Of a stretch of 53,406 nucleotides of DNA, positions 3,457 through 31,538 are shown one piece after another. The stretch is from assembly GCA_016926155.1 (NCBI GenBank), contig JAFGPC010000052.1, positions 1 through 53,406 on the forward strand, read 5' to 3'. The position numbers were made by a program, and so were the translations under genes. The notes beneath the pieces are model-generated. The model saw only the letters and a list, made by a program, of their open reading frames with translations. It did not search any database and was not told where the DNA came from. The stretch is from Sedimentisphaerales bacterium. GTDB lineage: Bacteria > Planctomycetota > Phycisphaerae > Sedimentisphaerales > Anaerohalosphaeraceae. The number at the start of each line of letters is the position of its first letter. Positions within the stretch are counted from its first letter, which is position 1.

Positions 3457-3574
3457 CGTTTTGTCCTTACACCCTGGTTCACTCAACCAATATTGATTTG
3501 CGGAACTCCCTTCTAGCATATATGATTTTCCATAAAGGTTGCAAGAGCAAAAGCTTGGCACTGTTGAGGTGTAC

Positions 3575-6118
3575 ATGAGCAACAATCCTTTGATTCGATC
3601 TCTGGATTCCCTATCCGAAGCCGACCGCCCCTTCGTAGGTTCCAAAGCAACCAATCTGGCACGAATGATCCATACCTCTCTGCCAGTGCCCTCCGGCTTT
3701 GTCATATCCACAGAAGTATTTCGTGTACATATTCCCGTTTCCATTCTGGAAGAGGATCCTGCTGTGATTCGTACCCGAATCGAAGGAATGACCTTATCCG
3801 ACGATCTCTTACAACAAATCGAATTACATTATCATGCTCTTGGAGAAACGACTGTTGCCGTACGTTCCTCAGCAACCGACGAAGACTTGCCGGGGCATTC
3901 TTTTGCAGGCCAGTACGAATCCTTCCTGAATATTTCTACCGCGGAGGAGTGTATCGAAGCGGTTAAAAAGTGTTGGGCATCTCTCTGGTCCGATCGTGCT
4001 GTGGAATATCGTCGGCAAAATGGAATTGATCCTGGAACAATCGCCATGGCCGTAATCGTACAGGAAATGATCGATGCGGATGTCTCGGGCCTGGTGTTTA
4101 CGGCCGATCCGGTAACCGGGGATCGTCAAAACATCGTCGTGGAAGCAGCCCCGGGACTTGGTGAAAATATTGTCCAGGGCAGGGTAGAACCGCAGCGATT
4201 TACACTCAATAGAAATGATTTTACTGTTTTGAATCGCCAGTTGCCTTCTCCGGATACACTTGCCTGCCTTGATGAACATCAGCTACGACAATTGGCACAG
4301 AAGGCAATCAAAGTCGAAGGTTTATTTAAAAATCCACAGGACATTGAATGGTCTATAAAAGACGGGCAAATCTGGCTATTGCAGGCCCGGCCTATCACGT
4401 CTCTGTCCAATACTAAAGATGCAGATTGGGATACCCATCAGATCTGGACCAATGTCAATGCCGGAGAAGTCATTCCCGACGTTGTCACTCCCATGACTGA
4501 CTCCATCCTCCGACCGAATGTGGTCAAGCTCCTTCAGGCATTTTTGGATATAGGGGGAATCGACATGGATCCGTCTCTTCTAATAGGATGTATCGCGGGT
4601 CGATATTACTTCAATGTCAATGCCGTTCTTTCCTTGATCCGGCACTTCCCCGGAACGAAGGACAAAGACCTTTCGAAACTACTGGGCGGCAGGGAAGATG
4701 AATTTTCTCAAATGGGTGTTAATGAAATTAATCCGGCTTACATACCTCCCAGCAGAAAACGACTGGGGCAATCTTTACGGAGCCTCATACAATTTATTCC
4801 GTGTCTGCTTCCGACTGTTTACGGACGTGCCCAACGAGGCCTCAATGTTGTTACTTCAAATACGGAACGAATTGTAAAATTAGACTACTCTTGTATGACT
4901 GACCGGGAAATCGCACAAACGATCACGGAAATTGTTTCCGATGCCCTCAACCTTGGCCAGGCAGGACCACTCATAGCCATAACCATGTTTTATTCGACTA
5001 TTCTTTTCGAACTGTGCTATCGCTGGTTCGATGACAAGAATCACCGGATCGGTAATCAATTGATGTCGGGTGTGGGAGGATTAAACGATGCCCAGTCAGG
5101 ATTTGATCTGTATGATCTGGCGGCCCTTGCTACACAAGATCCTTTTGTTAAAGAGGTCGTAACATCCGGAGAACCTTTTGAGACCATCCGTTCAAGGCTT
5201 GAATCGCAGGATGCCGGGCAGATTTTTCTTGCTCAGTGGGAACGTTTCCTGCACAAGCACGGTCATCATGCAAGAGGGGAAATCGAGGTTACCAATGTTC
5301 GTTGGGCCGAACAGCCGGACAGGATTCTGGAAATGGTCCGTAATCATCTGCCCGGTCCGAATACGATAGATCCAAAAGATACTCTCCAGCATCTGAGACA
5401 ACAGTCACAGGAAACTCTCAGACAATGCCGCAAGAAACTCAATCCCTTAAAACGCTGGATTTTTTCCGCTGTCGTCTCGAGAGCCCGCCTGGGCAGCCAA
5501 ATTCGCGAAAACGTGAAAAATGAATTTGCCCGTCGTGTCGCCACAACTCGATGGATGTTACTGGAACTGGGTAAACGACTTACTCAGAAAGGAATCTTCA
5601 ACAAACCAGAGGATGTTTTCTTTGTACACTATGACGAATTGTCGCAGATTCTGGATGAAACACTTCACGGCCAAATCCATGATCGGATTCGACAGCGCAG
5701 GGCCGAGTATGAGTACAATTGCTCCCTTCATCCGCCTCCGATTGTGGTAGGCAGATTTAATCCTTCTCATTATATTGAAAGGAAACCGGATAAAAACAGG
5801 AAAATCCTTACTGGTCTGGCTGTCAGCCCGGGCGTTGTAACGGGTCTGGCACGTGTCATCCTGCATGCCAGCGATGACCTGGTCCGGCCGGGTGAAATCC
5901 TCGTCGTTCCGGTGACCGATCCGGCCTGGACCCCTTATTTTATCAATGCCGCCGGAATTGTGATGGATACCGGCGGACTGCTCAGTCACGGCAGCATTGT
6001 CGCCCGTGAGTTCGGCAAACCCTGTGTGGTCAACGCCGGTCCGGCCACCAAAATCATACAAACCGGACAAATGCTCCGAGTCGATGGGGACCAGGGGATT
6101 GTTACTATCCTGGATTGA
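3575..6118 (+). CDS. Rifampicin-phosphotransferase-like / PEP-synthase-like dikinase
   Basis: The 847-residue protein starts at ATG 3575, preceded by GAGG about 7 bases upstream; a longer start at 3539 would overlap the divergent promoter region. Residues 1 to about 290 form the ATP-grasp nucleotide-binding domain of pyruvate phosphate dikinases, including 'VAVRSSATDEDLPG' (about 95-107) and 'DIEWSIKDGQIWLLQARPIT'. The last 90 residues are the swivelling phosphohistidine domain, with catalytic histidine near residue 805 in 'GGLLSHGSIVARE'. The C-terminal PEP/pyruvate-binding barrel of true PEP synthase is missing; a long helical middle region (about 300-750) occupies its place. That order and length are those of rifampicin phosphotransferase, which moves the beta-phosphate of ATP to an acceptor. 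The natural acceptor here is unknown. Confidence 0.8.
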   Translation: MSNNPLIRSLDSLSEADRPFVGSKATNLARMIHTSLPVPSGFVISTEVFRVHIPVSILEEDPAVIRTRIEGMTLSDDLLQQIELHYHALGETTVAVRSSATDEDLPGHSFAGQYESFLNISTAEECIEAVKKCWASLWSDRAVEYRRQNGIDPGTIAMAVIVQEMIDADVSGLVFTADPVTGDRQNIVVEAAPGLGENIVQGRVEPQRFTLNRNDFTVLNRQLPSPDTLACLDEHQLRQLAQKAIKVEGLFKNPQDIEWSIKDGQIWLLQARPITSLSNTKDADWDTHQIWTNVNAGEVIPDVVTPMTDSILRPNVVKLLQAFLDIGGIDMDPSLLIGCIAGRYYFNVNAVLSLIRHFPGTKDKDLSKLLGGREDEFSQMGVNEINPAYIPPSRKRLGQSLRSLIQFIPCLLPTVYGRAQRGLNVVTSNTERIVKLDYSCMTDREIAQTITEIVSDALNLGQAGPLIAITMFYSTILFELCYRWFDDKNHRIGNQLMSGVGGLNDAQSGFDLYDLAALATQDPFVKEVVTSGEPFETIRSRLESQDAGQIFLAQWERFLHKHGHHARGEIEVTNVRWAEQPDRILEMVRNHLPGPNTIDPKDTLQHLRQQSQETLRQCRKKLNPLKRWIFSAVVSRARLGSQIRENVKNEFARRVATTRWMLLELGKRLTQKGIFNKPEDVFFVHYDELSQILDETLHGQIHDRIRQRRAEYEYNCSLHPPPIVVGRFNPSHYIERKPDKNRKILTGLAVSPGVVTGLARVILHASDDLVRPGEILVVPVTDPAWTPYFINAAGIVMDTGGLLSHGSIVAREFGKPCVVNAGPATKIIQTGQMLRVDGDQGIVTILD

Positions 6119-6128
6119 AAAGCCGTCT

Positions 6129-7109
6129 CTACTTCGTCTGTGTTTCAATCATATACTGCAGGGCCTTCCAGCCGGCAAGCTGCTCGTGTGTGAGGGTGGC
6201 TGGACGATCGTTCGCCAGATGATGCTCGACGGCACGAAGCCGACGGCGTGTTTTTCTAGGCAGTGCCACTTTATGATTAACCACCAGACCGGTCACCTTC
6301 TGACACTGGTGCTTTCGTCGGATATTGAGCTTTCGCTTGGTGTGGATTTGATACCCGTATTCGAACAGAATCCTTTTTGTCATCCGTATCGTCTGGTGTA
6401 TCACGTAAGAGCTTTTCGACTTATCCTTAATATGCTCCAGTATTTTGGAATTCTGTCCTGTCAAGGTCTGTTTGATTTCTGCGAAATTGAACGAAAATGT
6501 GATATCATCGGCATACCGAGTATATCGAGCGCCGATCTTCTGAGCGTACCCATCCAGCCGGGCATCCAACTCAAAGTTGACCAGATTGCTCAACCGGGGA
6601 CTGGTCGGCGCACCCTGGGGCAATCCCCTTTCATATGTACACAGGCGAACAAGTACATCCGTCGCCTCTTTGCCCCAGTCAATCCCGTAAAAATAAGCCC
6701 GCACACGATTCGTTACGGTAGCTCCGAAGAAATCTCGTATATCCATCCGCACGACAACATCGGCCCCGACATGATACGCGGCATTAGTGGCAATCGACTG
6801 GCCTGGCTCAAAGCCCATGGCCGCTGGATGCGTCTGCAACCGCCCAAGTAATCTTCGTAAAATCCGTCTCTGCATCTCCTTGAGTTCCGGGTTCGGCACC
6901 GAAATTGTACGGAATCCATTACCGGAACGCTTGGGTATGGAAAATTGACGATAACTTACCTGCACTGCATGAAGTTGATCTACAGAAAAATCCAGTCGCT
7001 TTGCCAATTCCTCCAGTTTTTTTCCGTCGACCGGTGGTGTCAGATCAGGCTTTCGCTCCTGTGGACCAGGTCCTTGTAACAACTGTCGTAGCCAGTCCCA
7101 AAATCCCAT
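6129..7109 (-). CDS. Retron-type reverse transcriptase
   Basis: This 326-residue reverse transcriptase carries the retron hallmarks in order: 'SIATNAAYHVG' (the NAxxH motif, residues 109-113), 'RMDIRDFF' (motif A, aspartates 123 and 126), 'LPQGAPTSPRLSN' (163-175), 'YADD' (199-202) and 'KVTGLVVN' (the VTG thumb motif, 272-274). The catalytic residues look intact. I start it at ATG 7109, which has AAGG about 8 bases upstream; a GTG at 7136 in the same frame lies inside a hairpin and is less likely. In retrons this enzyme primes from the 2'-OH of a branching guanosine in its own non-coding RNA to make msDNA. A promoter and hairpin-rich RNA lie directly upstream (7158-7303). No adjacent effector gene is recognised; flanking genes are a convergent dikinase and a cytochrome-like gene. 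Confidence 0.9.
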   Translation of the reverse strand: MGFWDWLRQLLQGPGPQERKPDLTPPVDGKKLEELAKRLDFSVDQLHAVQVSYRQFSIPKRSGNGFRTISVPNPELKEMQRRILRRLLGRLQTHPAAMGFEPGQSIATNAAYHVGADVVVRMDIRDFFGATVTNRVRAYFYGIDWGKEATDVLVRLCTYERGLPQGAPTSPRLSNLVNFELDARLDGYAQKIGARYTRYADDITFSFNFAEIKQTLTGQNSKILEHIKDKSKSSYVIHQTIRMTKRILFEYGYQIHTKRKLNIRRKHQCQKVTGLVVNHKVALPRKTRRRLRAVEHHLANDRPATLTHEQLAGWKALQYMIETQTK

Positions 7110-7130
7110 TTGATGACCTTTATTAGAGAA

Positions 7131-7155
7131 GGGCACAGATCAAATACCTGTGCCC
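7131..7155 (-). promoter_or_regulatory. Perfect hairpin just upstream of the reverse transcriptase start
   Basis: GGGCACAG and CTGTGCCC form a perfect 8-bp stem around a 9-base loop. On the minus strand it ends 22 bases before the ATG at 7109 and is followed by TTCTCT and then the AAGG ribosome site. It could be the last hairpin of the retron RNA, an attenuator separating the RNA from the enzyme message, or a processing signal. The alternative GTG start (7134-7136) would lie inside the stem, which argues against that start. Confidence 0.6.
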
Positions 7156-7322: not shown

Positions 7323-9653
7323 TTATTGCAAAGCCGGGGGTAGAATGGTCATACCATGCTGTTGGGCGTATTGTTCATCCGTGCCATAGGATCCGTAGAA
7401 AGGCACATTCGCATCCAGCCAGAGATAGAGCCTGCGGCGTTCACTCCCATCAAGCTTTACATGCCCGGCGTGAGTCCGGTTAGTGAGGATCTCTATGAGG
7501 GGACTTTCATCAGCCCCGATGCGACCCGGGCGGGTAATGATCGGCTCAATGCTGGCACCGCCCCACTCATACCAGCGGACAAATGGTTTAAGGCTCTCAT
7601 ACGATCTGGTAAATCGCCCCAATGGAGTGCCGGTCAATAACAGTTTGCTCTTGTCGTTTCCCTCGCTACCATCATGACACCGAACACAGTGTCTATCCAG
7701 GATCGGTTGCATAAGAATCGGAAAGCTGAACGGATGCGTTCCCTCCGGGCCCGGTTCAATCACCGATGGCTCACGCTGTATTGCGACAGGCCTTGCCTGA
7801 TTGCCTTTGACATTGCCAACCGGCTCATGACATCCGACACAACTTCTACGCTCACCAGGCTGCAGGTATACTACCGAACGCATAGACTGCACCGCCCTTC
7901 CCGTCTCATCGACGGCTTGAAAATAGAGCGGTTTGCCTGCCGGAACGCGGAAATAAGCCGATCCATCCGATTCGACAGGAACCGTTCCCAGCAACATGCG
8001 GGCGCTTTCGGCATTCGCATGGCCGATCCGAGGTTGATTGGCAACATGGGTACGCGATTTGGGCAATACCTGATAGATACGAAGATGCGCAACATGCCGA
8101 TCCAAAGGCATGGCAAAATGGCTTGCGGTTACATCACTGACAACAAATTCGCCTTCATTCCCCAGTTTCTCATCGACCATGCTGGGCACAACGGGGGGCA
8201 CCGGACGGGGTGCCAACGGAATCGGATACATACAACTGATTCCCTTGTCCCGATAGAGCAGCTCCATATTGCCAAAGCGGTCAAAATAATACAATCCCGT
8301 CTCGGTATCCCGTTTCTTTTCACGAGCACTCATACCCGGCAGCGGATCAAAACTGAACGCTACCAGATACACATCCTCGGATAAAGGCCAGGGACTGTGA
8401 AAGTAACTTTCCGGCCAGCCCGTCGATTCGGGATAACAAACTTCCGGTGTAAGCTTTTCGATCGCGTCAAAACGATCCTGCCCGGTTTTCGCATCCAGCC
8501 CCACGGCACTTGGATCCAGCAGCACCATTGAGCCACCCACATCGGCATGATGCGCCCCGGCAATAAAAACAATCTTCTCCGAACCCGGCACTGCCCGAGG
8601 CTGATAACATGCATTGATATGCATCGTATAGTTACCAAATAATGCTCTTGTCGCCGTGCCGTCCGGACAGGTCATCCACAGTCCATGGAAATTAGCCGCC
8701 GAGCGATCTACATAATCCCAGCGGATATATACAATCCGTCCATCGTGAAGTACTGAGGGATGCCATTCACTGGTCTCATGGTATGATAGTGTCTGTCGTT
8801 TCCGCCATGTCGGATCCAGCCGATGCAGAGTATGAGCCGGCAGCGGTTCCCATGGATTATTACACCGTGTAAACCCACCCCGTGCGGACGACATGAATGC
8901 AATCCCCCCGTCCGGCAGAGGACACGGATCGAAATCATCGTCCGGACCAAATGTAATCTGTCGCAGATTCGATCCATCGGCGTTCATCGCATAAATGTGG
9001 AAACACCGCCGCTCGGTCGAATAGAAATCAGGCTTATCACCATCTGCTCGCCGGGCAAAGGCGAAGTATATCGTTTTGGCGTCATACGAAAGAGAAAGTG
9101 TTGTGAAGTTGCCCCGTTTCAAGCATACTCCTGTCAAATCCTGCACAGCAAGCGAATATCCCGGCTTTTCAAGCACAAACACGCCGCCGCCTTCGATATC
9201 TGCATAATCATAATAATACCCCAGATACTCATGCAGCATCTGACAGACAAACCGCCGTCGCTTCATGAACACAAGAGATTTGCCGGCAATCAATGGATTC
9301 TTCAATGCTGCGCTGTGGATCGCCCAACGCAGTTCCTGATATAATGATGTTCGCTCCGCCTGCCCCATTGAATCAAGTTGGAGGGCTCTTTTCGAAAGAG
9401 ATTCAAAGGCAGATTTCTCGCCGTGAACGTCGACTCTGAAATCGGACAGTGCCGAGAATAATTTCTGTCCGGATTGTACCACCGCGGCAATGGCCTGCGG
9501 ATCATCGCAACTTCGTCCTAATCTCTGCTCCTGGGCAATCCAGTCCATCTCCACCTGGGATCGAAGCGTAACATCTTCACAGCGAAACGATTCCGCCCGC
9601 CCTGACGTCATTACCGTCAATATCAACAGCCAGATCAGCATGGTTCGAGTCAT
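7323..9653 (-). CDS. Secreted di-heme protein related to hydrazine synthase alpha subunit
   Basis: The 776-residue protein has a signal peptide (residues 1-21, ending 'SGRAES') and starts at ATG 9653, with GGAG 7 bases upstream. The middle (about 180-520) looks like a beta-propeller of WD40/TolB type ('NADGSNLRQITFGPDDDFDPCPLPDG'), matching the HZS_alpha-type propellers widespread in Planctomycetota. The C-terminal third carries two c-type heme motifs, C605-VG-C608-H609 and C656-VR-C659-H660, in a planctomycete cytochrome-like domain. True hydrazine synthase alpha belongs to anammox bacteria; nothing here suggests anammox, so this is probably a periplasmic redox or sugar-oxidising paralogue. 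It lies 23 bases after the SYLF lipoprotein gene, as one operon. Confidence 0.75.
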   Translation of the reverse strand: MTRTMLIWLLILTVMTSGRAESFRCEDVTLRSQVEMDWIAQEQRLGRSCDDPQAIAAVVQSGQKLFSALSDFRVDVHGEKSAFESLSKRALQLDSMGQAERTSLYQELRWAIHSAALKNPLIAGKSLVFMKRRRFVCQMLHEYLGYYYDYADIEGGGVFVLEKPGYSLAVQDLTGVCLKRGNFTTLSLSYDAKTIYFAFARRADGDKPDFYSTERRCFHIYAMNADGSNLRQITFGPDDDFDPCPLPDGGIAFMSSARGGFTRCNNPWEPLPAHTLHRLDPTWRKRQTLSYHETSEWHPSVLHDGRIVYIRWDYVDRSAANFHGLWMTCPDGTATRALFGNYTMHINACYQPRAVPGSEKIVFIAGAHHADVGGSMVLLDPSAVGLDAKTGQDRFDAIEKLTPEVCYPESTGWPESYFHSPWPLSEDVYLVAFSFDPLPGMSAREKKRDTETGLYYFDRFGNMELLYRDKGISCMYPIPLAPRPVPPVVPSMVDEKLGNEGEFVVSDVTASHFAMPLDRHVAHLRIYQVLPKSRTHVANQPRIGHANAESARMLLGTVPVESDGSAYFRVPAGKPLYFQAVDETGRAVQSMRSVVYLQPGERRSCVGCHEPVGNVKGNQARPVAIQREPSVIEPGPEGTHPFSFPILMQPILDRHCVRCHDGSEGNDKSKLLLTGTPLGRFTRSYESLKPFVRWYEWGGASIEPIITRPGRIGADESPLIEILTNRTHAGHVKLDGSERRRLYLWLDANVPFYGSYGTDEQYAQQHGMTILPPALQ

Positions 9654-12122: not shown

Positions 12123-12171
12123 GAGACTATTGCAAAAGCCTTCTCTGGGGTGATTTTGGAGGAATACTACA

Positions 12172-15100
12172 ATGCCTCGATTTCGAGCAGTTAATGGAGT
12201 GTTGTTGATTGTGGCTTGTATTCTGTCTACCCACAGCAACTTTGCACAAACAATCACTCCTTCCGATGACTGGAAAAATAGGATTACGATCCCAAACGAT
12301 CCTTTCGAAGTCCGTTCCACTGCCTCGGATGGGATGGGCTGGACTAAATTTACTATTCTTCTTGATCCCTATGATCCCAATCTTGTCTATTACCAGGATA
12401 GTAAAAAATATTCTCTGCACTACACATTTGCCACCGAATGGCTTGATCCCTTTTTAGGTATCGCTCCGGAGGATTTCAATGCTGCCACCCTTTATCAGCA
12501 GGGCCAGCAGGCCATCCTGGGGGCCGTAATCACTCCCCCTAATGAAGGCTATCCCCCACAGCCTAAATTCCATGAATATGGCATCCAGTTCGTTCGATTC
12601 GATCCATATACCCCCGAACAGACTGCTCATATGTTTCATCTTGTTCGGGAGACAATTGACACCGATCCGGCAATGCAGGCTCTGTATTTTCCCAGTTATG
12701 AACAACGTCAGGTTGCCGAAAGTAATCGCGAATGGTTTGCCCAACAGGACATCATTGTCAGCTCCCCCGACCGCTGGCTTACAAACAATGTGATCTATTC
12801 TTCCGGCTGGAATACAGGCCTGCTTCGATTCGTTCCTTCCGATCAAATTGCATCGGCATACGCTCAGGGCAGTTTAAATCCAACCGACATCCTCCTGACC
12901 GATGCGGTTCCAGCCGATCTGCCGATCCTTGCCGGGATTATTACTCTCTCTCCTTCCACGCCTAACTCCCATGTGGCGATCCTGGCAAACACATACTCAA
13001 TCCCCTTTGTCTATCTGGCTGAGCAAGAAGATACAGAATTGGCATGGGATCTTGTCGATCAAGATATTGTCTTTACGGCTCATAGCTACTATGAAACTAC
13101 CAAAATCCGCCTGATTCAAACGGAAGGAGTTTTGACCGAGCAACAAATCGAGGAACTTTCCACATTGAAACAACCACCCACTCTGAATTTTACCCCGATT
13201 CAATCCTTCGGATCTTATAGCGCCCCTGTCGCCAATCTCATCTCGGACGACATCTGCTACTTTGGAGGCAAAGCAACCCATTACTCCATCCTGCTCCATT
13301 CTATCCCTGACAACTGTCGGATCGCCACCGCATTTTCCTTCGATTTGTGGAACGACTTTCTCGATCAGCCGATTGCCGTAGGAACGACCCTGCGTCAGTT
13401 CATCCGCTCCCGACTTTCCGGATATACCTACCCCCCTGCCAACATGGCCGGTTTGCTTCATGACCTGGATGACATTCGGGACATGATTCGAGATGCCGAT
13501 CTGGTTCCCTTTACTCCTGCCATACAGCAAGCCGTTCTCGACACCTTGACCGATTCACGATACGGATTTGAACCTGTCGAAAAAATTCGCTTTCGCAGCA
13601 GCACAAATCTGGAAGACACCGAATATTTTACCGGTGCGGGCCTCTACGACAGCTACAGTGGTTGCCTCGCGGATGAGCTTGATGACGATGACGAGGGACC
13701 CAGTCAATGTGATCCCGATGAAAACAATGAACGGGGTGTTTTCCGTGCTATTCGTCGCGTTTTTGCCAGTTTCTATAACGATAATGCTTATCTTGAACGA
13801 TTGCGTCACAACATTGATGAAGACCAGGTTGGTATGGCCATTCTCGTCCACCATTCCTTTCCCGATACCATCGAGTTAGCCAACGGTGTTGCCACGCTGG
13901 ATAGAACCAGTACCTATTCCACGCGCATTAAACTTGTCACTCAGGACGGGGCTGTCTCAGTTGCTAATCCGGAACCGGGTGTCATCCCCGAAGAAGTAGA
14001 GGTTTACAAATATTCTTCCGGTACAATCTATGCCCTGCTGCAAACCCGTTCCAATCTGGTGCCCCTTGGCGCTACCGTCATGGATTGGAAGGATGATTAC
14101 TTGGATCTTGCACAACTTCTCCTCAACGCGGCCGATCGGTTTGAGCTTGTAACCGGCAAGACCGGCTATCTGCTCGATTTCGAATACAAAAAGATCGCGC
14201 CTGAGGGCAAGCTTATTGTCAAGCAAATTCGACAGGTTCCAAAACCCTCACAGGAACAAAACATAACACCCATGCTGATCAACGAACCGACCTGTTTCTG
14301 CCTGTTTCAGGGGGAAGGCCAGGATGTCTTTGCCTATCATCGTCTCAAATCCCGCTGGAATCTCGAAACCCGAAGTCTTTGGCTGACAGAAGACAACCTC
14401 CGACAATCCATATTATCCAACATACAATTGGAATATAAAGACAGAGCACGAATTCGCGATCTGCAAGGCGATCCAACTGTCTGGCCTTATGCCTATCACA
14501 AATCCGAAATGAACGCATCGAAGGAAGCCGCTCTCCATGACGGCTGGCGAATGCACCATTTATCCAATCCCCGACAATATGAATTGTCCATCGAAGGTCT
14601 TCTTACACTTGTCTCCCCCGCCGACAGTCCTGTTATTACCTTGAAAGATTTCGCCCCGTATTCCTATCGCTCCCCGCGATTAAACGTTCAGGTTGAGTAT
14701 GACAATCCAGTCGAAAAGTATGACTGGCAACTTCCTCCCGGCCAGTTAGGAACTACAACCACAAACTGGATTACTCTCTGGCCTTGTTTGACACCTCAAG
14801 AAGGCGACCTGCTGCAGGAACGAATGATTACCGATGAAAAAACAGGGACGATTCAAACCTCATTCTACTGGCCGCCACCGCCTACCGGGGCTATTGCAGG
14901 ATATACTGCTCCACTCGTTCGTTGGGTTAAAACAATCATTACAGGCCTTACTAGCGAACCTATTGAATTACATGGATGGTATTCCCAGACCTATCTACCC
15001 GGACATCATAACTTCTTTGAGAGTTTTCTCTTTGAACCCTGGTTTGAACCGGATTTGTCGCCGAGTTTAATCGAAGAACTCAGAGCTAAAGACATCCGTC

Positions 15101-15363
15101 TTATCCATGTCTATGGCCCTGTCGGTCAGGATGGAATCATTAACGGACAGATCTTCACGTATGGATTCAAAGAAGAAACGTTTCAACCCGGCGATATCGA
15201 CGGCGATAAGGACACCGACTCTCATGATCTGATCGAATTGTCCCATCGATGGCTTAACACGAGTTGCCACGAATGTGACGGCGCCGACCTGGACGGAGAC
15301 GGACAGGTAAGCCTGAAAGACCTCACCGAAATAGCCCGGGCATATCTATCCCAACTCCCGTGA
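12172..15363 (+). CDS. Secreted PEP-synthase-like protein with C-terminal dockerin
   Basis: The 1063-residue protein has a signal peptide (residues 1-26, ending 'NFAQT'). It contains two pieces of the PEP synthase / pyruvate phosphate dikinase fold in reversed order. First comes a phosphohistidine-like segment with H267 in 'SPSTPNSHVAI' (about 238-282). Then an ATP-grasp part runs from about 355: 'FGGKATHYSIL', 'IRFRSSTNLEDTEYFTGAGLY' (about 472-492) and a later C-terminal half. Residues about 1003-1060 hold two complete calcium loops, 'GDIDGDKDTDSHD' and 'DLDGDGQVSLKD', a proper two-repeat dockerin. Cytosolic ATP would not be available outside the cell, so activity, substrate and location are unclear. 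It has its own promoter and a strong ribosome site. Confidence 0.75.
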   Translation: MPRFRAVNGVLLIVACILSTHSNFAQTITPSDDWKNRITIPNDPFEVRSTASDGMGWTKFTILLDPYDPNLVYYQDSKKYSLHYTFATEWLDPFLGIAPEDFNAATLYQQGQQAILGAVITPPNEGYPPQPKFHEYGIQFVRFDPYTPEQTAHMFHLVRETIDTDPAMQALYFPSYEQRQVAESNREWFAQQDIIVSSPDRWLTNNVIYSSGWNTGLLRFVPSDQIASAYAQGSLNPTDILLTDAVPADLPILAGIITLSPSTPNSHVAILANTYSIPFVYLAEQEDTELAWDLVDQDIVFTAHSYYETTKIRLIQTEGVLTEQQIEELSTLKQPPTLNFTPIQSFGSYSAPVANLISDDICYFGGKATHYSILLHSIPDNCRIATAFSFDLWNDFLDQPIAVGTTLRQFIRSRLSGYTYPPANMAGLLHDLDDIRDMIRDADLVPFTPAIQQAVLDTLTDSRYGFEPVEKIRFRSSTNLEDTEYFTGAGLYDSYSGCLADELDDDDEGPSQCDPDENNERGVFRAIRRVFASFYNDNAYLERLRHNIDEDQVGMAILVHHSFPDTIELANGVATLDRTSTYSTRIKLVTQDGAVSVANPEPGVIPEEVEVYKYSSGTIYALLQTRSNLVPLGATVMDWKDDYLDLAQLLLNAADRFELVTGKTGYLLDFEYKKIAPEGKLIVKQIRQVPKPSQEQNITPMLINEPTCFCLFQGEGQDVFAYHRLKSRWNLETRSLWLTEDNLRQSILSNIQLEYKDRARIRDLQGDPTVWPYAYHKSEMNASKEAALHDGWRMHHLSNPRQYELSIEGLLTLVSPADSPVITLKDFAPYSYRSPRLNVQVEYDNPVEKYDWQLPPGQLGTTTTNWITLWPCLTPQEGDLLQERMITDEKTGTIQTSFYWPPPPTGAIAGYTAPLVRWVKTIITGLTSEPIELHGWYSQTYLPGHHNFFESFLFEPWFEPDLSPSLIEELRAKDIRLIHVYGPVGQDGIINGQIFTYGFKEETFQPGDIDGDKDTDSHDLIELSHRWLNTSCHECDGADLDGDGQVSLKDLTEIARAYLSQLP

Positions 15364-15378
15364 CGAATTCATCAATGT

Positions 15379-15858
15379 CTATTGCTGTGCTTCCACCGGA
15401 GGAATGGCTTCTACAGGAGGAACGACCATCATCGGTGCTGGTTGTAGGACTCGCTCATTGAACGCATCCAGAATCTTTCGTTTGCTACTGTCTGAGAAAA
15501 GACGGTGCAAATTATCCAGAATCTTTGCCTTTGTGCCTGCACACATGTCGGGATTGTAAATCAGAGCCAGAAGCACTGCTTCCTTGGATGAATCACTGAA
15601 CAGCCGATAGGCCGCCTTGACCAGATGCACCTGCGCTCCACAGCTCAGTCCCGGCCGCTGCGCGATCGCCAGATACACGGCTTCCTTGTCAGAATCGGAG
15701 AATAGCCGTCCCGCTGCATCGATCTCCTGGATGGTGGCATCCCCCTGCATATAGACCGTCTCAGGACAGCATTTCGGTGATCCCCCGATCACAATGCAGC
15801 CGCTTAGCAACCCGGAAATCACGATACAAACCATGCCATACATAAATCGCTTCTTCAT
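15379..15858 (-). CDS. Small lipoprotein with three 34-residue repeats
   Basis: The 159-residue protein starts at ATG 15858, preceded by AGGAGG; a longer frame reaches 15897 without such a site. It has a clear lipoprotein signal, 'LLSGC', with cysteine at 21. Three tandem units of 34 residues follow, each containing 'RLFSDSsKeAvllA', beginning at residues 51, 85 and 119. The pattern resembles the DUF4476 type of 'F.sDs.K' repeats, seen in small exported proteins. A proline-rich tail ('PPVEAIPPVEA') closes it. The function is unknown. It is convergent with the secreted PEP-synthase-like gene, only 15 bases away. Confidence 0.7.
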   Translation of the reverse strand: MKKRFMYGMVCIVISGLLSGCIVIGGSPKCCPETVYMQGDATIQEIDAAGRLFSDSDKEAVYLAIAQRPGLSCGAQVHLVKAAYRLFSDSSKEAVLLALIYNPDMCAGTKAKILDNLHRLFSDSSKRKILDAFNERVLQPAPMMVVPPVEAIPPVEAQQ

Positions 15859-16071
15859 GGATGTGCCTCCTAAATGTTTAACCTCGTTGCTTATCAAAGT
15901 TCACACTGGTATTATACGACGCTGGTCACCTTAAAAAAATTGTAATTTTTCATAAATATTTTTTTATCCATTATAAAAATACAGGATCTTATCGAAAAAA
16001 CTATACAATTGAATATATATTGTTTCTTGCTTCATCGAGCAAGAACTGTTTCGTTTAAAGCAGGAACATTC

Positions 16072-18094: not shown

Positions 18095-20770
18095 CTACCA
18101 CGACAGATCCGATTGATCTTCCAGCCAGTGTGTCGCCATCAATGCCAGATCGGTCAAATTCACCCGACAATCACCATTGATATCGCCGATAACAATTGTT
18201 TCACAAACTGGCCCATCAAACCAACTCCTGGATGCCTCTGCCGTACCGCCATAGGCGCCCATGTTCACAATCCCTCCGTTGGGGAACGGCTCATACATGA
18301 TTGGAGAAGCCGGATCTCCTGCGTCGATGCACGGACTGGTGACAGTATCCTGTACCCATGCCTTTGTTTGCGGATCCCATCGGCCTGCCTGGCTTCTAAG
18401 GTAGTAGTCCCCGGGTATCCAGACATCGTCATAGTAATAGTAGGTTCCTTTTGTATCCCAGTGGCCGGGACTGACAAACAATGGATTCTGGTCGATCGTC
18501 CCGATACCGGCGAACTTCCCCGTCCATCCCTGCACACAGCAAAAATCAAATGCGGCGATTCCGAAGTTGCGCCCGATCTGGGCCCACTCGATATTGTCGC
18601 TTTCGCAGGTGTTGCCCCAAAAGATACAGGACAAGAAACGGCTAGTTCCCGGATCTTCCATCACATCCCCCTCCACCTCAACTGCCACGCCGCCCCACTG
18701 GTCGTGGGCAACGTTTTGGGCTACCGTGCAATTGACGATCGTCGCGGCGGCATTCTCCAGGTATATCCCACCTCCGTGTTCGGCCTGGTTACCGACAATC
18801 AGGCAATGGTCCAAGGTCAAGGACCCACCGGACAGAGACACTGCACCTCCATTACCGGTGGCATAATTGTCCGTAAACACGCAATGGATTACACGACAAT
18901 TCGTGCTGTCGGAACTATGCAGTCCCCCACCCGCCGACGCCAGGTTTTCGCGGAACAGACAATCACGAACCTCCAGATCCACCGCGTATTCGCAAACCAG
19001 TCCACCTCCCCCTTGGCCGCCGGAGATAGTGAATCCTTCCAGCACGGCCCCCGACTGTAAACCGGAGGCCAGAACCACATTTTCGCTGTTGTCCTCCCGG
19101 GAAAAATCATGCCAGGGGCCATGATCGTCGTCGTCTCCGCTGAAGATATAATCGTCCCCGGCAAGGTCTCCGCTGAGGATCGATTCGAAGGCGCCGATGT
19201 CACGGGCATCCGGATTGGTCGCCCCGAATCCCGCATAACCTCCGCGAATCGCAACACCGTCCTTGAGCACAAACACCGATTCGCGAGATCCGTTGGGATC
19301 GGCAGGCCGATATATGCCCTGTGCGACGCGAATCTCCTGACCCTGTACGACTTCCGCCAGCGCATTCTGCAGGTCGGTGAACGCATCGCTCCAGCAGGAA
19401 CCATCGCCCATGCCCGTTGCGCTGTCATCGACATAGATAATCGTCGATTTACAATGGAATTCATATGCCCCTATATCAACAGTTCTGTTTGTAATTCTTG
19501 GATTCCCATCCAGATCGAGATCTGTTAGGACATACGTATTATTTCCGGCATCGATGCAGGGAGAACCACGTAACAGATGCAGGTCTCCAAGATCGTCATT
19601 ATCTCCGCGCCACCAGCCGTCGCCGCCATCGTTGGGATTTCTGATAAACATCGGATCCACATCTATGTTGTGCATATCGGTTCCTGTTCCCTGAATCCCT
19701 CCCCACCAATCGTCGCTAATATTACTGAAAAATACCAAAGGAGGCGTACCTCCATAAGTATCGATTACATCTCTGATAATGCTGTTAACTATTGTAAGAC
19801 TGTTTCCTTTGTTGTAAATACCGTCGCCTCCGTCACTGGCCTTGTTGCCAGCCAGTGTGCAGTTGACAAGCTCCAGTGTTCCGGATCGATACCATACAGC
19901 CCCGCCTCCCCAGTCCTCGGCAAAATTTCCTGTAAAAATGCAATTTAACAAATCGAGATCACCCGCATTAACATAAACACCCCCACCGACATCCCAGCCC
20001 CAGTTTAAATAGAATCTGCATCTGTCACAGAAAGCATTATCCTGATTATGTAATACAGCCCCCCCTCCGTTTGCTATGTTTTTAATAAAAGTGCAGCCGA
20101 TAATCTCCAGATCACCCTCCTGGCTATATATACCGCCGCCATAAAGCGATTCGTTGCCCATGAAAGTACAATCCATGATAGTCACAGTCCCCCCGACTGA
20201 ATTGTTTAGCCCGCCTCCATTATGACGATCGTCGAAATCTCTGCTGTCACTATACCCTGCTGTTATGGTAAATCCGTTGATTACGACGACGCTGTTTGTG
20301 TCCGCAATGGTAATTACACTGTAACTGTTATCAAGGCGACTGGCCTTAATTTCTTCAGCATAGGGATTTACCAATTCCAGATCGTTTTCGTCCAGGTCGC
20401 CGCTCAGGATTGTCTGATAGGCTTTCACATCCCGCACATCAGGATCGGATGTGCCGAGACCGGCATAGCCTCCACGAAGTGCCACTCCGTTTTTAAGCGG
20501 AAAAGTCTCTTCCCTTCCCCGGCCCGGTCGATCGCTCAGAACAAATTCATCCGGTTTGTAAACTCCTTGTGCCACACGTATCTCATCCCCTTTCGAAGCC
20601 AGCATCAGGGCATCCTGAAGATACTTCAAAGACGTGTTCCAGGATAATCCATCTCCCTCGGGCGCAGCATCATCATCCACATACAGTATCGTTCCGGCAA
20701 ACAAGGGCAATGGTATTGTAAGCACCAGGATCAAACCCAGGATATTCGTTACGTAAAATTTCCGTTCCAT
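18095..20770 (-). CDS. Secreted two-module right-handed beta-helix protein with dockerin-like tail
   Basis: The 891-residue protein has a signal peptide (1-25, ending 'LPLFAG'). Two copies of the same module follow, starting near residues 27 and 450. Each opens with 'YVDDsA..GdG.sW..al..LQ.AL' and '[11 protein letters not shown]', continues with 'LRGGYAG.G..DPD.RD...y.tiLSGDL', then runs of 'N...GGGi' rungs typical of polymorphic outer-membrane-protein and parallel beta-helix repeats. The C terminus is a single dockerin-like loop, '[21 protein letters not shown]'. Proteins of this type are adhesins, polysaccharide-binding proteins or lyases; no catalytic motif is evident. It is the last of three tandem paralogues, with 48 bases to the gene upstream. 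Confidence 0.85.
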
Positions 20771-20818
20771 TTTCTACCCCTTTCATAAACCCGTTTTCTC
20801 ACCTTACATGCCGAGTAA

Positions 20819-23800
20819 TCAGCGTGTCTCCATCCAATGCGCAGCCATCAATGCAAAATCACGCAGATTCACCTTACAATCCCCATTCAAATCGCCTGTA
20901 ATTACCACTTTACAGTTAGGATTTCCGAACCAGCTCTTGCTTGCCTGAGCTGTTCCGGCATAGGCGCCGATATTAATAATGCCTCCATTCGGGAAGGATT
21001 CCTCCATGATGGGATAAGTCGAATCGCCGGCATCAATACAAGGGCTCGTCAAATCATCCGTGATCCAATTTGCATCGGCTGTATTCCATCGTCCCGCCTG
21101 GCTCTTCAAGTGGAAATCACCGGCTCCAGGATCGGCAAACAACGGATCATCGCTGAAATTATCGCTACCTCCCCATTGTCCTGTCCAATCCTGAATACAG
21201 CAGTAGTCGATATGAACCTCTGGTTGTTGACTGGATTCAGAATCTTCCCAATTGGAATGATGCAATTGTGCAGATCCGTCACTATCGGAATTGGCCCAGA
21301 CAATCGTATGATTGAGCCGGATATTCGGACGACCATCGGAGGAAGACCGAGCCTCATAATAGAGTCCTCCGAACAATTCTTCGGCATGGTTAAAGGCAAT
21401 CGTGCAAAAAGAAAAATTCGCGCCGCTATAGGAGTGGTCGTAGACGCCGCCTCCTTTTTGAGTGGCTCTGTTATTGGCGATTAAGCAGTTGGTAAAAACG
21501 GGCTGTCCCTCAAAATCACTATATACACCGCCGCCAAATTTGGCGATGTTACCAATAATGCGGCAATGGAGAACCTCCAAAGTCCAATTGGAACCGGTGG
21601 AACTATGAATATACAAGCCGCCTCCTGAATCCGAAGAAAGATTCTCAGTAATCGTACAATTTGTGATCACCATCCGCCCCAGATCCACATAAAGACCGGC
21701 ACCTGAAACAGCATGATTGCTTCGAATCAGAGAATCGGCAATCTTTCCATCCAAACCTAACAAGATACCACCTGCCCGAAAAGTAGCTCGGTTGTCTTCC
21801 ACAATACAATCATTTACTTCGCGGGGATATACGATTCCGGCACCAAAAAAAGCCACGTTCCCGATAATTCGACATTGTTCGAATATACTTCCCGCCCCGG
21901 TATATCCGGCAATAGTACCCGGTGTATAACCATGGGCTCCAGCGCCTCGAAGTACTGCACTGTTATTCAGAATGCGACAATTTCGTACAAAAATATCTCC
22001 ATGATAAATCCCTGCTCCATTACGCTGGACTTCCGTGTTTCCATTAGCATTACCGTCTCTGATAGTAATCCCATCCAGAACGGTAGACAGATCACAGTCG
22101 GATGCTGTAACAACATGGTAGGAATTGTCGGACCGACTGGGATGACCGCATACGTCACAAGGATCGACCACGTTGATATCCAGATCGTTGTTCAACAGAT
22201 CTCCACTGAGAACGGTTTCATACTGCTGTACATCCCGCCAATCGGGATCGGATTGTCCAAAACCGGCATACCCGCCCTTGAGAATAACACCATTACTTAA
22301 TTGGAATGTCGCTTCACGATCTCCCAGACTGCCGCTTGGCCCCTGATCCGGCTGATAAATTCCGCCGGCAATCCGGATTTCCGTACCATAAGACGCTAAT
22401 CGTAAGGCATCCTGAAGATATTCAAATGCTGTTTCCCAACTTCGGCCGTCATGGACGGGTAACGAATTGGCATCTCCATCAACATAGAGAATGTCCGGGG
22501 TAACCATTTCATACTCGTAAGCACCGATATCCACCGCCCCTCCCTTAACACGCGGATTTCCATCCAGGTCCAGGGTGGCAGGCGCCGCCGAGGAGGTACC
22601 GGTCCCTGTTCCCGTACCCGTACTGTTATAGTAGCTTTTATCACCGGCATTGATGCAGGGCGAACCTTCCGATAAATGGAGATCGTCATCTTCGGTTCCC
22701 GGTCGCAAATCCGGGCCGGCCGGATCGACAAACAAAGGATTCAATCCTGTATTGCCGTTTCCTATTTGCAGATCCGTCAAACCTTCAATGCAGCAATGAT
22801 ACACCTGAAGCAGGCTGTCCGGATTTATTCCTGTACCTGTCGCCGTGCCGATTCGAGATATCTGGCCTTCCGGATGGCCCCGTCCCTCCTGGTCCTCATT
22901 CCCCCAAAGGATGCTATTGGCCACCAGCCAATAATCCGCCCATCCTGGAGCAATATACACTCCGCCGCATGTCTCCATGCTTTGGTTTGCCCATATCGTA
23001 CAGTTGACCAGCCAGATCTCGGGAACGCCGCCTTCATAAACCGCTCCTCCATCGCCTCCTGCGAAATTGTCGTTAAACAGGCATTGATAAAATCGAGGAT
23101 AACCATAACAGGTATCACAATTGTAGGAATAGACGCCTCCTCCCAGATTCGACGCGGTATTCCCCATAAATTGGCACCGTTCCACTAATGGATCGTCGTA
23201 CACGGTAGACAGACCCCCTCCTGATCCCGCCATATTTGCCCGGATCATGCAATCGATGACATGGGGACTTCCCAGAACCTGCACACCGCCTCCGGCATCC
23301 AAAGCGAAATTGCCCTCGATCAGGCAGCGCTGGACCTGTCCTCCCGCTGCCAGCCCTCCGCCTGACTCGGCACAGTTGGATCGAACGATACAATCTTGGA
23401 ACGTCGAGGATGAATAGGCGCCCCCTCCCTGAGCCCAAGCCATATTACCTTCCAGAATGCAATTCTGCACAATCGCCTTATGGACGCCAGAACCATACCC
23501 ATAGATTCCTCCACCGAGTTTGTCCTTCCAGGTTTCTCCATCGGCCTGACCGCCGGCAATGACGAATCCATCCAGAACGATCTCCCTATCTCCGGTTCCG
23601 ATTACGACGACATGGTAACTGTTATCGGCTCGTTGAGGCATGGTAACCAGGTCTTTCAAATAGACGGGAACCGCATCGTCCCCATTCAAATCTCCGCTCA
23701 GAATGGACGGATACATGGCAGGATCACACAAATCCGGATCAGACGCCCCCAAACCGGCATACCCTCCTTTAACCATGATCTCTTTATCGATCAGGAAGGA

Positions 23801-24634
23801 AATTTCTCTGCCGCCCTCCGGAGGAGCCGGCCGATACACTCCCTGCGCCGCCCAGATAATATCGCCTTCCTGAGCCTCATCCAGGGCAACCTGTAAATCC
23901 GTAAAGGCATCGGACCAGGAGGAACCGTCGTCGGCTCCGTCAATGGCTCGTCGGTCAACATGCAACACCCTGTGGAACCGAATATGTTCCCATGTTCTTT
24001 CGGTTTCAACGTCACAAAGGTATACTAAGAAATCCGTACCATCTACCCACCGCCCATAAACGGCTCCTCCCGTATGCCCGTCGGGAAGATCGGGACTGAC
24101 AGCATCCGGATCATAACGCAGGCCGCGTCCAAAAATATGGATTTCAGAATTATCTACACCTACGATATATCCGCCGATCATGCCCCCCCGGATATTCACA
24201 CGACTATTATCCAGCGCCCAAATCCAACTACTAATGATACCGTCTGTCATCTCCACTACACTCGAATGCTCCGCCTGGATGCCCCCAAAGTGTCCACCGC
24301 CGATTGAAATCAAGCTTGAATCGTAACTCATCAGATCGGAGAATTCACCCCCAACCACTATAAAATGACTATGGCCTCTCGCATAGGCATCGATGATCTG
24401 CCCGCCGCTGACCAGGATCTGGCATGAGTCGGTTGCCGTCAGGTTATAGACATAGCCACCCGTCATCGTCACCATAGCCGTACAACCAAATGTCGGACAA
24501 TCATAGCTGTCCGTTTCTTCAATCACGGTGTCCGTACAGATGCTGCCGCCGGCCTGCACGACAATCGAAAGAATTAGTATCATTCGGAAGATTAATCCCC
24601 CGCCGATCGTGGAATGACAGGACCTTATCTCCAT
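20819..24634 (-). CDS. Secreted right-handed beta-helix protein, largest of three paralogues
   Basis: The 1271-residue protein begins at ATG 24634 with AAAGGGA about 7 bases upstream and has a secretion signal in the first 31 residues. Unlike its neighbours it then has an extra domain (about 40-175) of short rungs ('VSGGQIIDAYARGHSHFIVVG', 'SVVEMTDGIISSWIW', 'SRVNIRGGMIGGYIVG') resembling autotransporter passenger repeats. Two standard beta-helix modules start near 225 and 715, separated by a Gly-Thr run. The C terminus is the dockerin-like 'GDLNGDCKVNLRDFALMAAHW'. No catalytic residues are recognised. Spacing of 48 and 57 bases to the neighbours indicates a three-gene operon. Confidence 0.85.
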   Translation of the reverse strand: MEIRSCHSTIGGGLIFRMILILSIVVQAGGSICTDTVIEETDSYDCPTFGCTAMVTMTGGYVYNLTATDSCQILVSGGQIIDAYARGHSHFIVVGGEFSDLMSYDSSLISIGGGHFGGIQAEHSSVVEMTDGIISSWIWALDNSRVNIRGGMIGGYIVGVDNSEIHIFGRGLRYDPDAVSPDLPDGHTGGAVYGRWVDGTDFLVYLCDVETERTWEHIRFHRVLHVDRRAIDGADDGSSWSDAFTDLQVALDEAQEGDIIWAAQGVYRPAPPEGGREISFLIDKEIMVKGGYAGLGASDPDLCDPAMYPSILSGDLNGDDAVPVYLKDLVTMPQRADNSYHVVVIGTGDREIVLDGFVIAGGQADGETWKDKLGGGIYGYGSGVHKAIVQNCILEGNMAWAQGGGAYSSSTFQDCIVRSNCAESGGGLAAGGQVQRCLIEGNFALDAGGGVQVLGSPHVIDCMIRANMAGSGGGLSTVYDDPLVERCQFMGNTASNLGGGVYSYNCDTCYGYPRFYQCLFNDNFAGGDGGAVYEGGVPEIWLVNCTIWANQSMETCGGVYIAPGWADYWLVANSILWGNEDQEGRGHPEGQISRIGTATGTGINPDSLLQVYHCCIEGLTDLQIGNGNTGLNPLFVDPAGPDLRPGTEDDDLHLSEGSPCINAGDKSYYNSTGTGTGTGTSSAAPATLDLDGNPRVKGGAVDIGAYEYEMVTPDILYVDGDANSLPVHDGRSWETAFEYLQDALRLASYGTEIRIAGGIYQPDQGPSGSLGDREATFQLSNGVILKGGYAGFGQSDPDWRDVQQYETVLSGDLLNNDLDINVVDPCDVCGHPSRSDNSYHVVTASDCDLSTVLDGITIRDGNANGNTEVQRNGAGIYHGDIFVRNCRILNNSAVLRGAGAHGYTPGTIAGYTGAGSIFEQCRIIGNVAFFGAGIVYPREVNDCIVEDNRATFRAGGILLGLDGKIADSLIRSNHAVSGAGLYVDLGRMVITNCTITENLSSDSGGGLYIHSSTGSNWTLEVLHCRIIGNIAKFGGGVYSDFEGQPVFTNCLIANNRATQKGGGVYDHSYSGANFSFCTIAFNHAEELFGGLYYEARSSSDGRPNIRLNHTIVWANSDSDGSAQLHHSNWEDSESSQQPEVHIDYCCIQDWTGQWGGSDNFSDDPLFADPGAGDFHLKSQAGRWNTADANWITDDLTSPCIDAGDSTYPIMEESFPNGGIINIGAYAGTAQASKSWFGNPNCKVVITGDLNGDCKVNLRDFALMAAHWMETR

Positions 24635-24691
24635 GATTATCCCTTTCCCAAATGATGAGTCTGTATTTTTTTCGACTTGCTCATTCTTCGT

Positions 24692-27600
24692 TTATTCTTG
24701 CTGTCGATCTTCCAGCCAGTGCATGGCCATCAATGACACATCCAGCAGACTAACGATACAATCCCCATTCAGATCTCCCATGATCTGCTTCTCACAAATC
24801 GGCTTGTCAAACCAGGTCTTGCTCGCCTGAACGGTTCCACCATAGCCTCCCACATTAACAATCCCCCCATTGGGGAATGGTTCATGCATGATCAGGCTTA
24901 GCGGATCACCCGCGTCAATACAGGGACTGGTAACTTCATCCTGCACCCATGTGTTTGTTGCAGGATCCCACCGTCCTGCCTGGGATTTCAGGTGATAGTC
25001 CCCCGCTGTCGTATCTGCAAACAACGGATCGACATCCATATTCACGTCGCCCCACGTTAAATTATCCGCTGAATCGATAGAGATTCCGTTCATGCCCCCT
25101 TCCAGGTTCGAAAATCGTATCGATACTTTTGTGTTATCCCAGACCCACAGATGATTCCCATCCTGAGCCGAATTACTCCGGAAGATGCTGTTGGCCACAT
25201 CCAATTCGGCAAAATGGCTGGAGGCCAGCGCTCCGCCGCGGCTTTCGGCGCTATTATTCACCAACGTGGCATTTTCCAAAGATAAGCGATTATTAAAACT
25301 GTGTATCGCGCCGCCCTCTATATCACATTGATTATTGGCAAAGAGACAACGGTGAATAACCACCTCATTAAACCAGTTGTCAATAGCCCCTCCATGCCAA
25401 GAGGCATGATTGTTCAGGAACTGGCTGTCCCGGATTGTCAGAGATCCTTCACTAGCACTGATCGCCCCGCCATCCGGCCCGACATTGTCCACAAAGTTAC
25501 TCCCCTTGATTTCAATATGAGCCGCAGCAGATCCTATCGCGCCGCTCCCGTCGGTACCCTCGTTCCCGATGAATTCGCTGTCGATGATTTCGATCTGGCA
25601 GTCCCTTAGATAGAGAGCTCCGGCCCAGGAAAAGACGGCCTGATTCTGTTCGAATCGGCATCGTTCCATGCGGGCTTCTCCTCCCAATTGCATCATCGCT
25701 CCTCCATAATATTCAGCATCAAATCCGGTCGTCATATTACGTTCAAATAAACAATCCACAAATCCCGGCTTGCCGTTGATGCTCAATACCGCCCCGCCGC
25801 GGGCCGTAACATCGCCGCTGAAACTGAAATTTTCCACAAACCGACAACCCCGAAATACCGGACCGCCATTGACGTTGCAAACCGCCCCGCCGCCGGTTTT
25901 CGCACCGAAAGAGATGGCTGTGTTACGGTAAAACGTACAGTGGTTCAGACTTGGATTCCCATGATCATTGTACATTCCACCACCGTTGTTTCCCGGTTCG
26001 GTATACATATTATTACAACAGGGAACATCATATTGTTGCCCATAGACACCATATAGATTCGCGTTTCCTGCCGTAATCGTTACTCCGTCCAGAACCGCTG
26101 TTTCATCGGTTCCATTACCGGTCACTACAGAGTATGCATTGTCATCCCGGCTTGAATCACGGGCATAGGAATGAACATCTTCCCATTCCCAGGAAGCCAA
26201 AGGTTCATCATTGTTGAGAAGATCACCAGAAAAGATTGTTTTGTGCAGATCTATATCCCGAGTATAAGGATTCACTGCCCCATTCCCTGCATATCCTCCT
26301 TTGATCGTAATTCCATTACGAAGATGAAAACTCGCCTGACGATCCCCCTGTAATACATCGTTACCCCGATCAGGATAATACACACCTTGCCCGATATGGA
26401 CATGCTCTCCTTCCTGTGCAGCGGCCAGGGCATCCTGAAGAGAAATGAAAGCGTCTGTCCAGTTTAAACCTGTATTCGCACCTGAAGCATTATCATCTAC
26501 ATACCATATCTTTTTCTGGACACTTTCATATGCCCCGACATCTACCCGATCAAACATTAGACGGTGTAATCCATCCAGATCCTTTTCTCGATAGAATACA
26601 ACATATGCCCATGGATTGGGGAAATAATATCCTTCCGGAATTGTTCCCCCTATATTCCGGGCTATATACATCGGATCGCCCCGATCCAGACAGGGGGAAC
26701 CTTCCCCCAGGTGATAGTCTCCATGAATCCATATCCCATTGGCATTACGAAAACCCGCCTGCATAAAATTCGGATTTGAACTCAGATTTCCCGAACCTAT
26801 CCAGGAACCTTCAACACAACTGTACTGGACGGACAGATATTCGAAATCACCATCGATTTGAAGGTTTGTTGGACTCGTCCCTAATGTGGTCCAGTTATCC
26901 CATAGGATGCAATTACGGAGCCGAACCGTTGTCTCATCGATATAGAATGCAGCCTGACGATTTCCGACCAGTGTGCAAAGGATTAACGAACTGCCAAACG
27001 TCCTGTAGGAACTGTCATAAATAGCCCCTCCTTCCTCTTCTGAGATGTTACCGGCAATGAGGCAATTAATATAACTGCAAAGGGTATTGCTTTCACTGCA
27101 CACAGCCCCTCCTCGACCGTAGGTGGCATTATCGAGTAATTCACAGGAATCAAATAAAATGAAAGAACTCCGACACGTTCCACATCCATCCAGATTCACT
27201 GCTCCCCCTTTTTCCTGAGCGGCATTATTAACAAATCGACACCGTTCCAAAATCACGCGGCTGTTCCAAAAGGCCAGTCCCCCGCCACTGCTTTGTGCGA
27301 CATTCGCTTGGAAGGTACAGTTTCGCAGAATTGCATTACTGTAATCCACCAACACCCCGCCTCCGACGGAATCGGAATGACCGTCACGAATAATAAATCC
27401 ATCCAGGATTGCAACATCTTCGTCTTCTGAACCGATTGTGACTATATGTCGGGTATTATCACTACGTGTCGGGTGCCCCAGATAATCGAGAGGATTGTCT
27501 AATACAACATCATTCCCATTCAGATCCCCGCTCAGAATAGTCTCATACAGAATTACATCCCGTGCATCGGGATCAGAAGCTCCCGCTCCGGCATACCCTC

Positions 27601-31408: not shown

Positions 31409-31457
31409 GGCGTCTATTCAAAGATTCTCAAACAAACAGATCCATGAGCATAAACTC

Positions 31458-31486
31458 TTGATTCTGTATGCTTTGAAGCGTATAAT
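31458..31486 (+). promoter_or_regulatory. Strong sigma-70 promoter of the CapA fusion gene
   Basis: TTGATT (31458-31463, four of six), a 17-base spacer and a perfect TATAAT (31481-31486). It lies 52 bases before the ATG at 31539 and after the protease stop at 31408, so the fusion gene is transcribed separately. The start codon has only a weak ribosome site. Confidence 0.65.
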
Positions 31487-31538
31487 AGCAGTATACTATA
31501 ATCGGTGTGATCTATTCATTGAACAACATGGATTTTTT

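Follow-up and report, generated by a model that had tools for sequence, protein, structure and literature searches.

The gene at positions 12172 to 15363 of the window, the 53,406-nucleotide stretch of contig JAFGPC010000052.1 that was analysed (Sedimentisphaerales bacterium, assembly GCA_016926155.1), probably encodes an exported, catalytically intact dikinase in which the phosphohistidine domain comes first and which would move the β-phosphate of ATP via histidine 267 (H267) to an extracytoplasmic acceptor. We assign this reading a probability of roughly 0.55. The source assembly comprises 5.0 Mb in 222 contigs and is 96% complete; a search for a plasmid origin of the window gave no match, and PADLOC returned no defence system for the dikinase gene. 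The parts of the gene are as follows.

12158..12163, +: ribosome-binding site GGAGGA, 8 bases 5' of the ATG (sequence)
12172..15363, +: predicted exported histidine-first dikinase gene, an ORF with an ATG start, 1063 aa
12172..12246, +: putative export signal, residues 1-25, conserved in relatives
12259..12780, +: N-domain, residues 30-203, alpha/beta (alignments, model)
12781..13131, +: phosphohistidine swivel domain, residues 204-320 (Pfam, family matches, model superposition)
12970..12972, +: H267, predicted phospho-carrier at the start of helix 267-274 (63/63 rows; model)
13207..14247, +: ATP-grasp nucleotide-binding domain (PPDK_N), residues 346-692 (Pfam, fold match, profile comparison)
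13270..13272, +: K367 in the GGKA motif, predicted ATP contact (63/63 rows)
13588..13647, +: RFRSSTNLEDTEYFTGAGLY motif, residues 473-492 (two alignments)
14182..14232, +: E671 ... K684-Q685-R687, predicted Mg/ATP ligands (63/63 rows)
14269..15171, +: beta-rich C-domain, residues 700-1000 (model; no family match)
15187..15345, +: type I dockerin, residues 1006-1058 (loops 15193-15228 and 15286-15321)

Pfam orders the domains of the protein as PEP-utilizers, PPDK_N, and Dockerin_1. The PPDK_N match (residues 407-574) reaches 39.6 bits, above its cut-off; the PEP-utilizers match (residues 249-287), which corresponds to the swivel domain, scores 18.5 bits in the single protein, below the cut-off of 23.1. 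This weak match is nevertheless taken as real because 57 of 60 family members match the same model and because, in superposition, residues 204-320 fit the swivel domains of rifampin phosphotransferase (RPH, Z 11.1), Enzyme I, and pyruvate phosphate dikinase (PPDK). Pfam order and superpositions thus bear out the initial annotation, which had placed a histidine segment ahead of the ATP-grasp domain; H267 and RSSTNLEDTEYFTG lie where it had put them. The same annotation had called the protein PEP-synthase-like, which does not hold for the enzyme: the PEP/pyruvate barrel (PF02896) gave no Pfam match at E-values up to 1, the protein reaches 16 bits with the NCBIfam PEP synthase models, whose cut-offs are 598 and 740, and identity as a PEP synthase was rejected on these grounds together with the leading position of the histidine domain. 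With the barrel absent, pyruvate is irrelevant to the exported dikinase. The reversed order had also been presented as a departure from the norm; in glucan water dikinases (GWD), the histidine domain likewise stands before the nucleotide domain, so the order by itself is not new. CBM modules were not detected in Pfam scans of the protein and family members.

An AlphaFold2 model built on a 63-row alignment (pLDDT 89.9, pTM 0.84) places residues 346-692 closest to RPH (Z 27.9, rmsd 2.8, 293 residues aligned) and to PEP synthase (Z 27.4). For residues 30-320, modelled at a pLDDT of 95, no fold match to the N-domain appeared among the matches listed, which were filled by swivel matches. The shortest distant relatives consist of the N-domain, swivel, and ATP-grasp only, which makes the N-domain the core third domain of the family; its residues K59, H83, G117, Y172, and P174 are invariant in the distant group too. 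As it is kept even in the shortest members, the N-domain is likely to form the acceptor site, although no such site was found. The C-domain, absent from these short relatives, is beta-rich in the model, and searches of PDB and Pfam found no sequence related to it; Foldseek gave weak matches to lipocalin-like pericyclases and hydratases (probability about 0.1).

The residues expected of a working dikinase are retained. H267, G365-G366-K367, R473, R475, S476, S477, N479, E481, and D482, together with AGLY, E671, K673, K684, Q685, and R687, are identical in 63/63 aligned rows spanning Planctomycetota, Verrucomicrobiota, Myxococcota, and Binatota, the conservation of the RSS..N.ED stretch being biased because it seeded the scan for relatives and that of the other catalytic residues being unbiased. 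The same pattern recurs in a nine-member alignment obtained by protein search, which includes distant, unseeded relatives and in which the RFRSSTNLEDTEYFTGAGLY motif is invariant save at variable positions. In a profile comparison, the ATP-grasp residues align to those of canonical dikinases that this genome also encodes, among them the protein at 3539-6118 of the window, with the pairs GGKA/GSKA, RSSTNLED/RSSATDED, FASFYNDNA/WASLWSDRA, and E...KQIR/E...LQAR. The possibility that the protein is a relic was rejected on the basis of this invariance across phyla: neither the nucleotide-binding nor the histidine residues have been lost, a point that the initial annotation had singled out for checking, and its suggestion of a fold repurposed for binding only is disfavoured.

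The canonical dikinase at 3539-6118 (+) is an 859 aa RPH/PEP-synthase-like protein with ATP-grasp first and histidine last, whose E...Q-A-R equals the E671 ... K684-Q685-R687 segment; it falls below all NCBIfam equivalog cut-offs, with top scores to RedH/PigC and PEP synthase models. Beside it, at 6129-7136 (-), lies a 335 aa reverse transcriptase related to retron/defence clades (retron_St85, 214 bits against a cut-off of 235; PADLOC RT_XIII and RT_X), followed at 7323-9653 (-) by a 776 aa exported-looking protein with a hydrazine synthase alpha middle domain (PF18582, 3e-25) and CXXCH-like haem motifs. Downstream of the dikinase gene, 15379-15897 (-) encodes a small protein that resembles a lipoprotein and contains three similar repeats of the form 'RLFSDSxKxxxxxA', and 31299-35924 (+) is a single frame of 1541 aa with beta-lactamase, transglutaminase, and PGA_cap (capsule synthesis) domains, either an unusual fusion or a joined frame.

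Export appears to be a conserved property of the family. The N-terminus of the window protein, MPRFR-AVNGVLLIVACILSTHSNFAQ, is signal-like, and a crude signal test is passed by 50/61 family members compared with 4/607 internal methionines; Sorangium and Polyangium members that fail the test carry lipoboxes. Cleavage by signal peptidase I near A25 and a lipobox (IVA-C) at C16 are indistinguishable from the sequence, and either would mean export. The earlier proposal that a signal peptide directs the protein out of the cytoplasm is therefore upheld, the signal being both present and conserved.

The proposed two-repeat dockerin at the C-terminal end is likewise genuine. Dockerin_1 (residues 1006-1056) scores 21.3 bits in the whole-protein scan, just below the cut-off of 22.9, and 26.8 bits in the genome scan, above it; both loops (D1008-D1019 and D1039-D1050) show the spacing of calcium loops, with D at positions 1, 3, 5, and 12. 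A partner cohesin, which the initial annotation had suggested looking for, was not found: PF00963 has no match in the 96% complete assembly, a search that a divergent cohesin could escape. It has been proposed that freshwater Planctomycetes possess cohesin/dockerin systems without cellulosome function (PMC6461901). Within the close family, C-terminal dockerins occur in a minority of members, all of them Planctomycetota; in two members of the Binatia type, dockerin-like repeats precede the rest of the chain. As the window protein groups in the tree with three members that have no dockerin, these modules must have been gained or lost more than once. Export is thus conserved across the family, through Sec signals and lipoboxes, and the dockerin is optional. 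Elsewhere in the window, three consecutive large beta-helix proteins (Chlam_PMP, Disaggr_assoc) are encoded at 18095-27880 (-); the protein from 18095-20770 has half a dockerin at its end.

Relatives occur in 19/392 genomes of the phylum that were searched, where they fall into a close group and a more distant one, at about 25% identity; distant members mostly end in dockerin-like repeats, some with FG-GAP repeats in front. An alignment-based scan of GTDB genome contigs revealed at least 570 loci encoding relatives, whereas an earlier single-protein scan had found none. The best 80 of these loci belong mainly to Planctomycetota, Verrucomicrobiota, and Myxococcota (Sorangium, Polyangium), plus a single record from Binatia, and the nearest relatives among the matches listed come from Phycisphaerae and Sedimentisphaerales. 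A tree of 63 members tracks the phyla (changes: Planctomycetota 1, Verrucomicrobiota 2, Myxococcota 3), which indicates that inheritance has been mainly vertical. A literature search, largely of open-access papers, found none on an exported histidine-first family, and these dikinases appear to constitute a family, spread over three phyla of bacteria, that has yet to be described.

One Planctomycetota branch has an internal lamin-tail domain: Pfam confirms it in one member, and the longer chains of the sister members suggest it there too. The insert is seen in L105. Longer-chain members (L105, L110, L111, L112, L116, and L100) adjoin tandem exported leucine-rich-repeat/beta-helix proteins. Such neighbours were rejected as a family-wide trait, being seen in several longer-chain Planctomycetota members, and none of the genes next to the family loci examined proved to be conserved; one apparent conserved neighbour cluster turned out to consist of antisense ORFs over the dikinase gene itself.

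The family co-occurs with CotH kinases and lamin-tail proteins. The 1063 aa dikinase has no CotH domain in Pfam; its own genome holds 23 CotH matches elsewhere. Inspection by eye of one full-length CotH protein showed a dockerin and lamin-tail-like repeats behind an N-terminus that looks like a signal, so use of ATP beyond the cytoplasm is already implied in this organism. CotH is present in 16/19 family genomes compared with 126/392 overall. By loose, first-look candidate counts among the 392 genomes, the dikinase family is carried by 14/14 genomes with at least 12 CotH candidates and by 14/15 with at least 25 lamin-tail candidates; it is carried by 1/14 of the most sulfatase-rich genomes. 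The 14 CotH-rich genomes are spread over six GTDB families; in two of these (f1 and f14), the dikinase family is found only in the CotH-rich genome. Of the 19 genomes that carry the dikinase family, 6 belong to a single GTDB family (f70). The co-occurrence thus partly reflects one lineage, and the Fisher value, 6e-22, overstates independence.

Several known systems share features with the window protein. Like GWD and phosphoglucan water dikinase (PWD), it has a swivel phosphohistidine domain before the ATP-grasp domain. Weak matches to GWD1_pHisD (PF22973) occur in 4/60 family members (best E 0.0065), compared with 57/60 for PEP-utilizers. GWD/PWD depend on an essential histidine and pass the β-phosphate to the histidine and then to a sugar (PMC7569903, PMC12892837). 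They differ in being plant plastid enzymes with a starch-binding CBM45, whereas the window protein is bacterial and exported, has no CBM45, and carries other N- and C-domains. RPH provides the best fold match for both the ATP-grasp and the swivel domains; however, its order is ATP-grasp first, a drug-binding middle domain, and histidine last (PMC4844700), whereas the window protein is histidine-first and has no drug-binding middle domain. PEP synthase and PPDK share with it the folds of both domains, ATP-grasp and swivel, as well as the catalytic residues, but differ in their barrel, opposite order, and lack of export. CotH-type exported kinases resemble it in accessory modules, compartment, and genomes, although their kinase fold is unrelated to the dikinase. 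Proteins with CotH and with LTD-LTD-Fn3-CotH architecture are among the cellulosomal proteins of C. thermocellum (PMC6083626).

Activity, dikinase chemistry, the availability of ATP outside, and the class of acceptor are what we infer from these features. The ATP-grasp domain would bind Mg-ATP outside the cytoplasmic membrane and pass its β-phosphate onto H267, from which the swivel domain would carry the phosphate to an acceptor held mainly by the conserved N-domain. The acceptor is probably a hydroxyl on a surface protein or glycan, and the C-domain and dockerin may position the enzyme. That the phosphate ends up on an acceptor at the surface is our best guess by analogy with GWD/RPH chemistry and from the CotH link; it agrees with the initial annotation, which had raised transfer outside the cytoplasm, there too as a possibility.

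One consideration against this reading is that extracellular ATP is scarce. The protein might be an exported nucleotide-using enzyme that hands phosphate to water or a small molecule, in ATP scavenging or an RPH-like inactivation. Its closest folds are indeed RPH and PEP synthase and the family has no conserved partner gene; the RPH drug-binding domain is missing, however, and the presence of dockerin, lamin-tail, and FG-GAP modules points to anchoring on large structures of the surface, which leaves this alternative rather unlikely. A repurposed, non-catalytic fold with a binding or structural role would suit a protein without known activity that is exported to an ATP-scarce place, but it is improbable given that all the ATP-grasp and histidine residues checked are invariant across phyla, unlike those of a relic.

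The ATP problem would be sidestepped by another external donor (PEP, polyphosphate, or pyrophosphate) or by a reverse reaction making ATP from a phosphorylated surface compound; PPDK is known to be reversible (PMC5371819). The absence of both the PEP/pyruvate domain and a partner gene makes such a scheme quite improbable. Action in the cytoplasm, where ATP is available, would require the signal to be misread or used late; the export-like N-termini of 50/61 members, the lipoboxes of Myxococcota, and the calcium-binding dockerin render it very improbable.

The dikinase group to which PEP synthase, PPDK, GWD, and RPH belong is considered intracellular. If active, the conserved exported family would represent phosphohistidine-swivel phosphate transfer from ATP outside the cytoplasm in at least three phyla. 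More tentatively, a second ATP-dependent machinery, unrelated to CotH, may phosphorylate surface proteins or glycans beside the expanded CotH kinases in Planctomycetota, with kindred in Verrucomicrobiota and Myxococcota; such a machinery, if true, would imply a supply of ATP to the extracytoplasmic compartment. The tie to CotH and lamin-tail proteins makes surface phosphorylation and the origin of its ATP testable questions.
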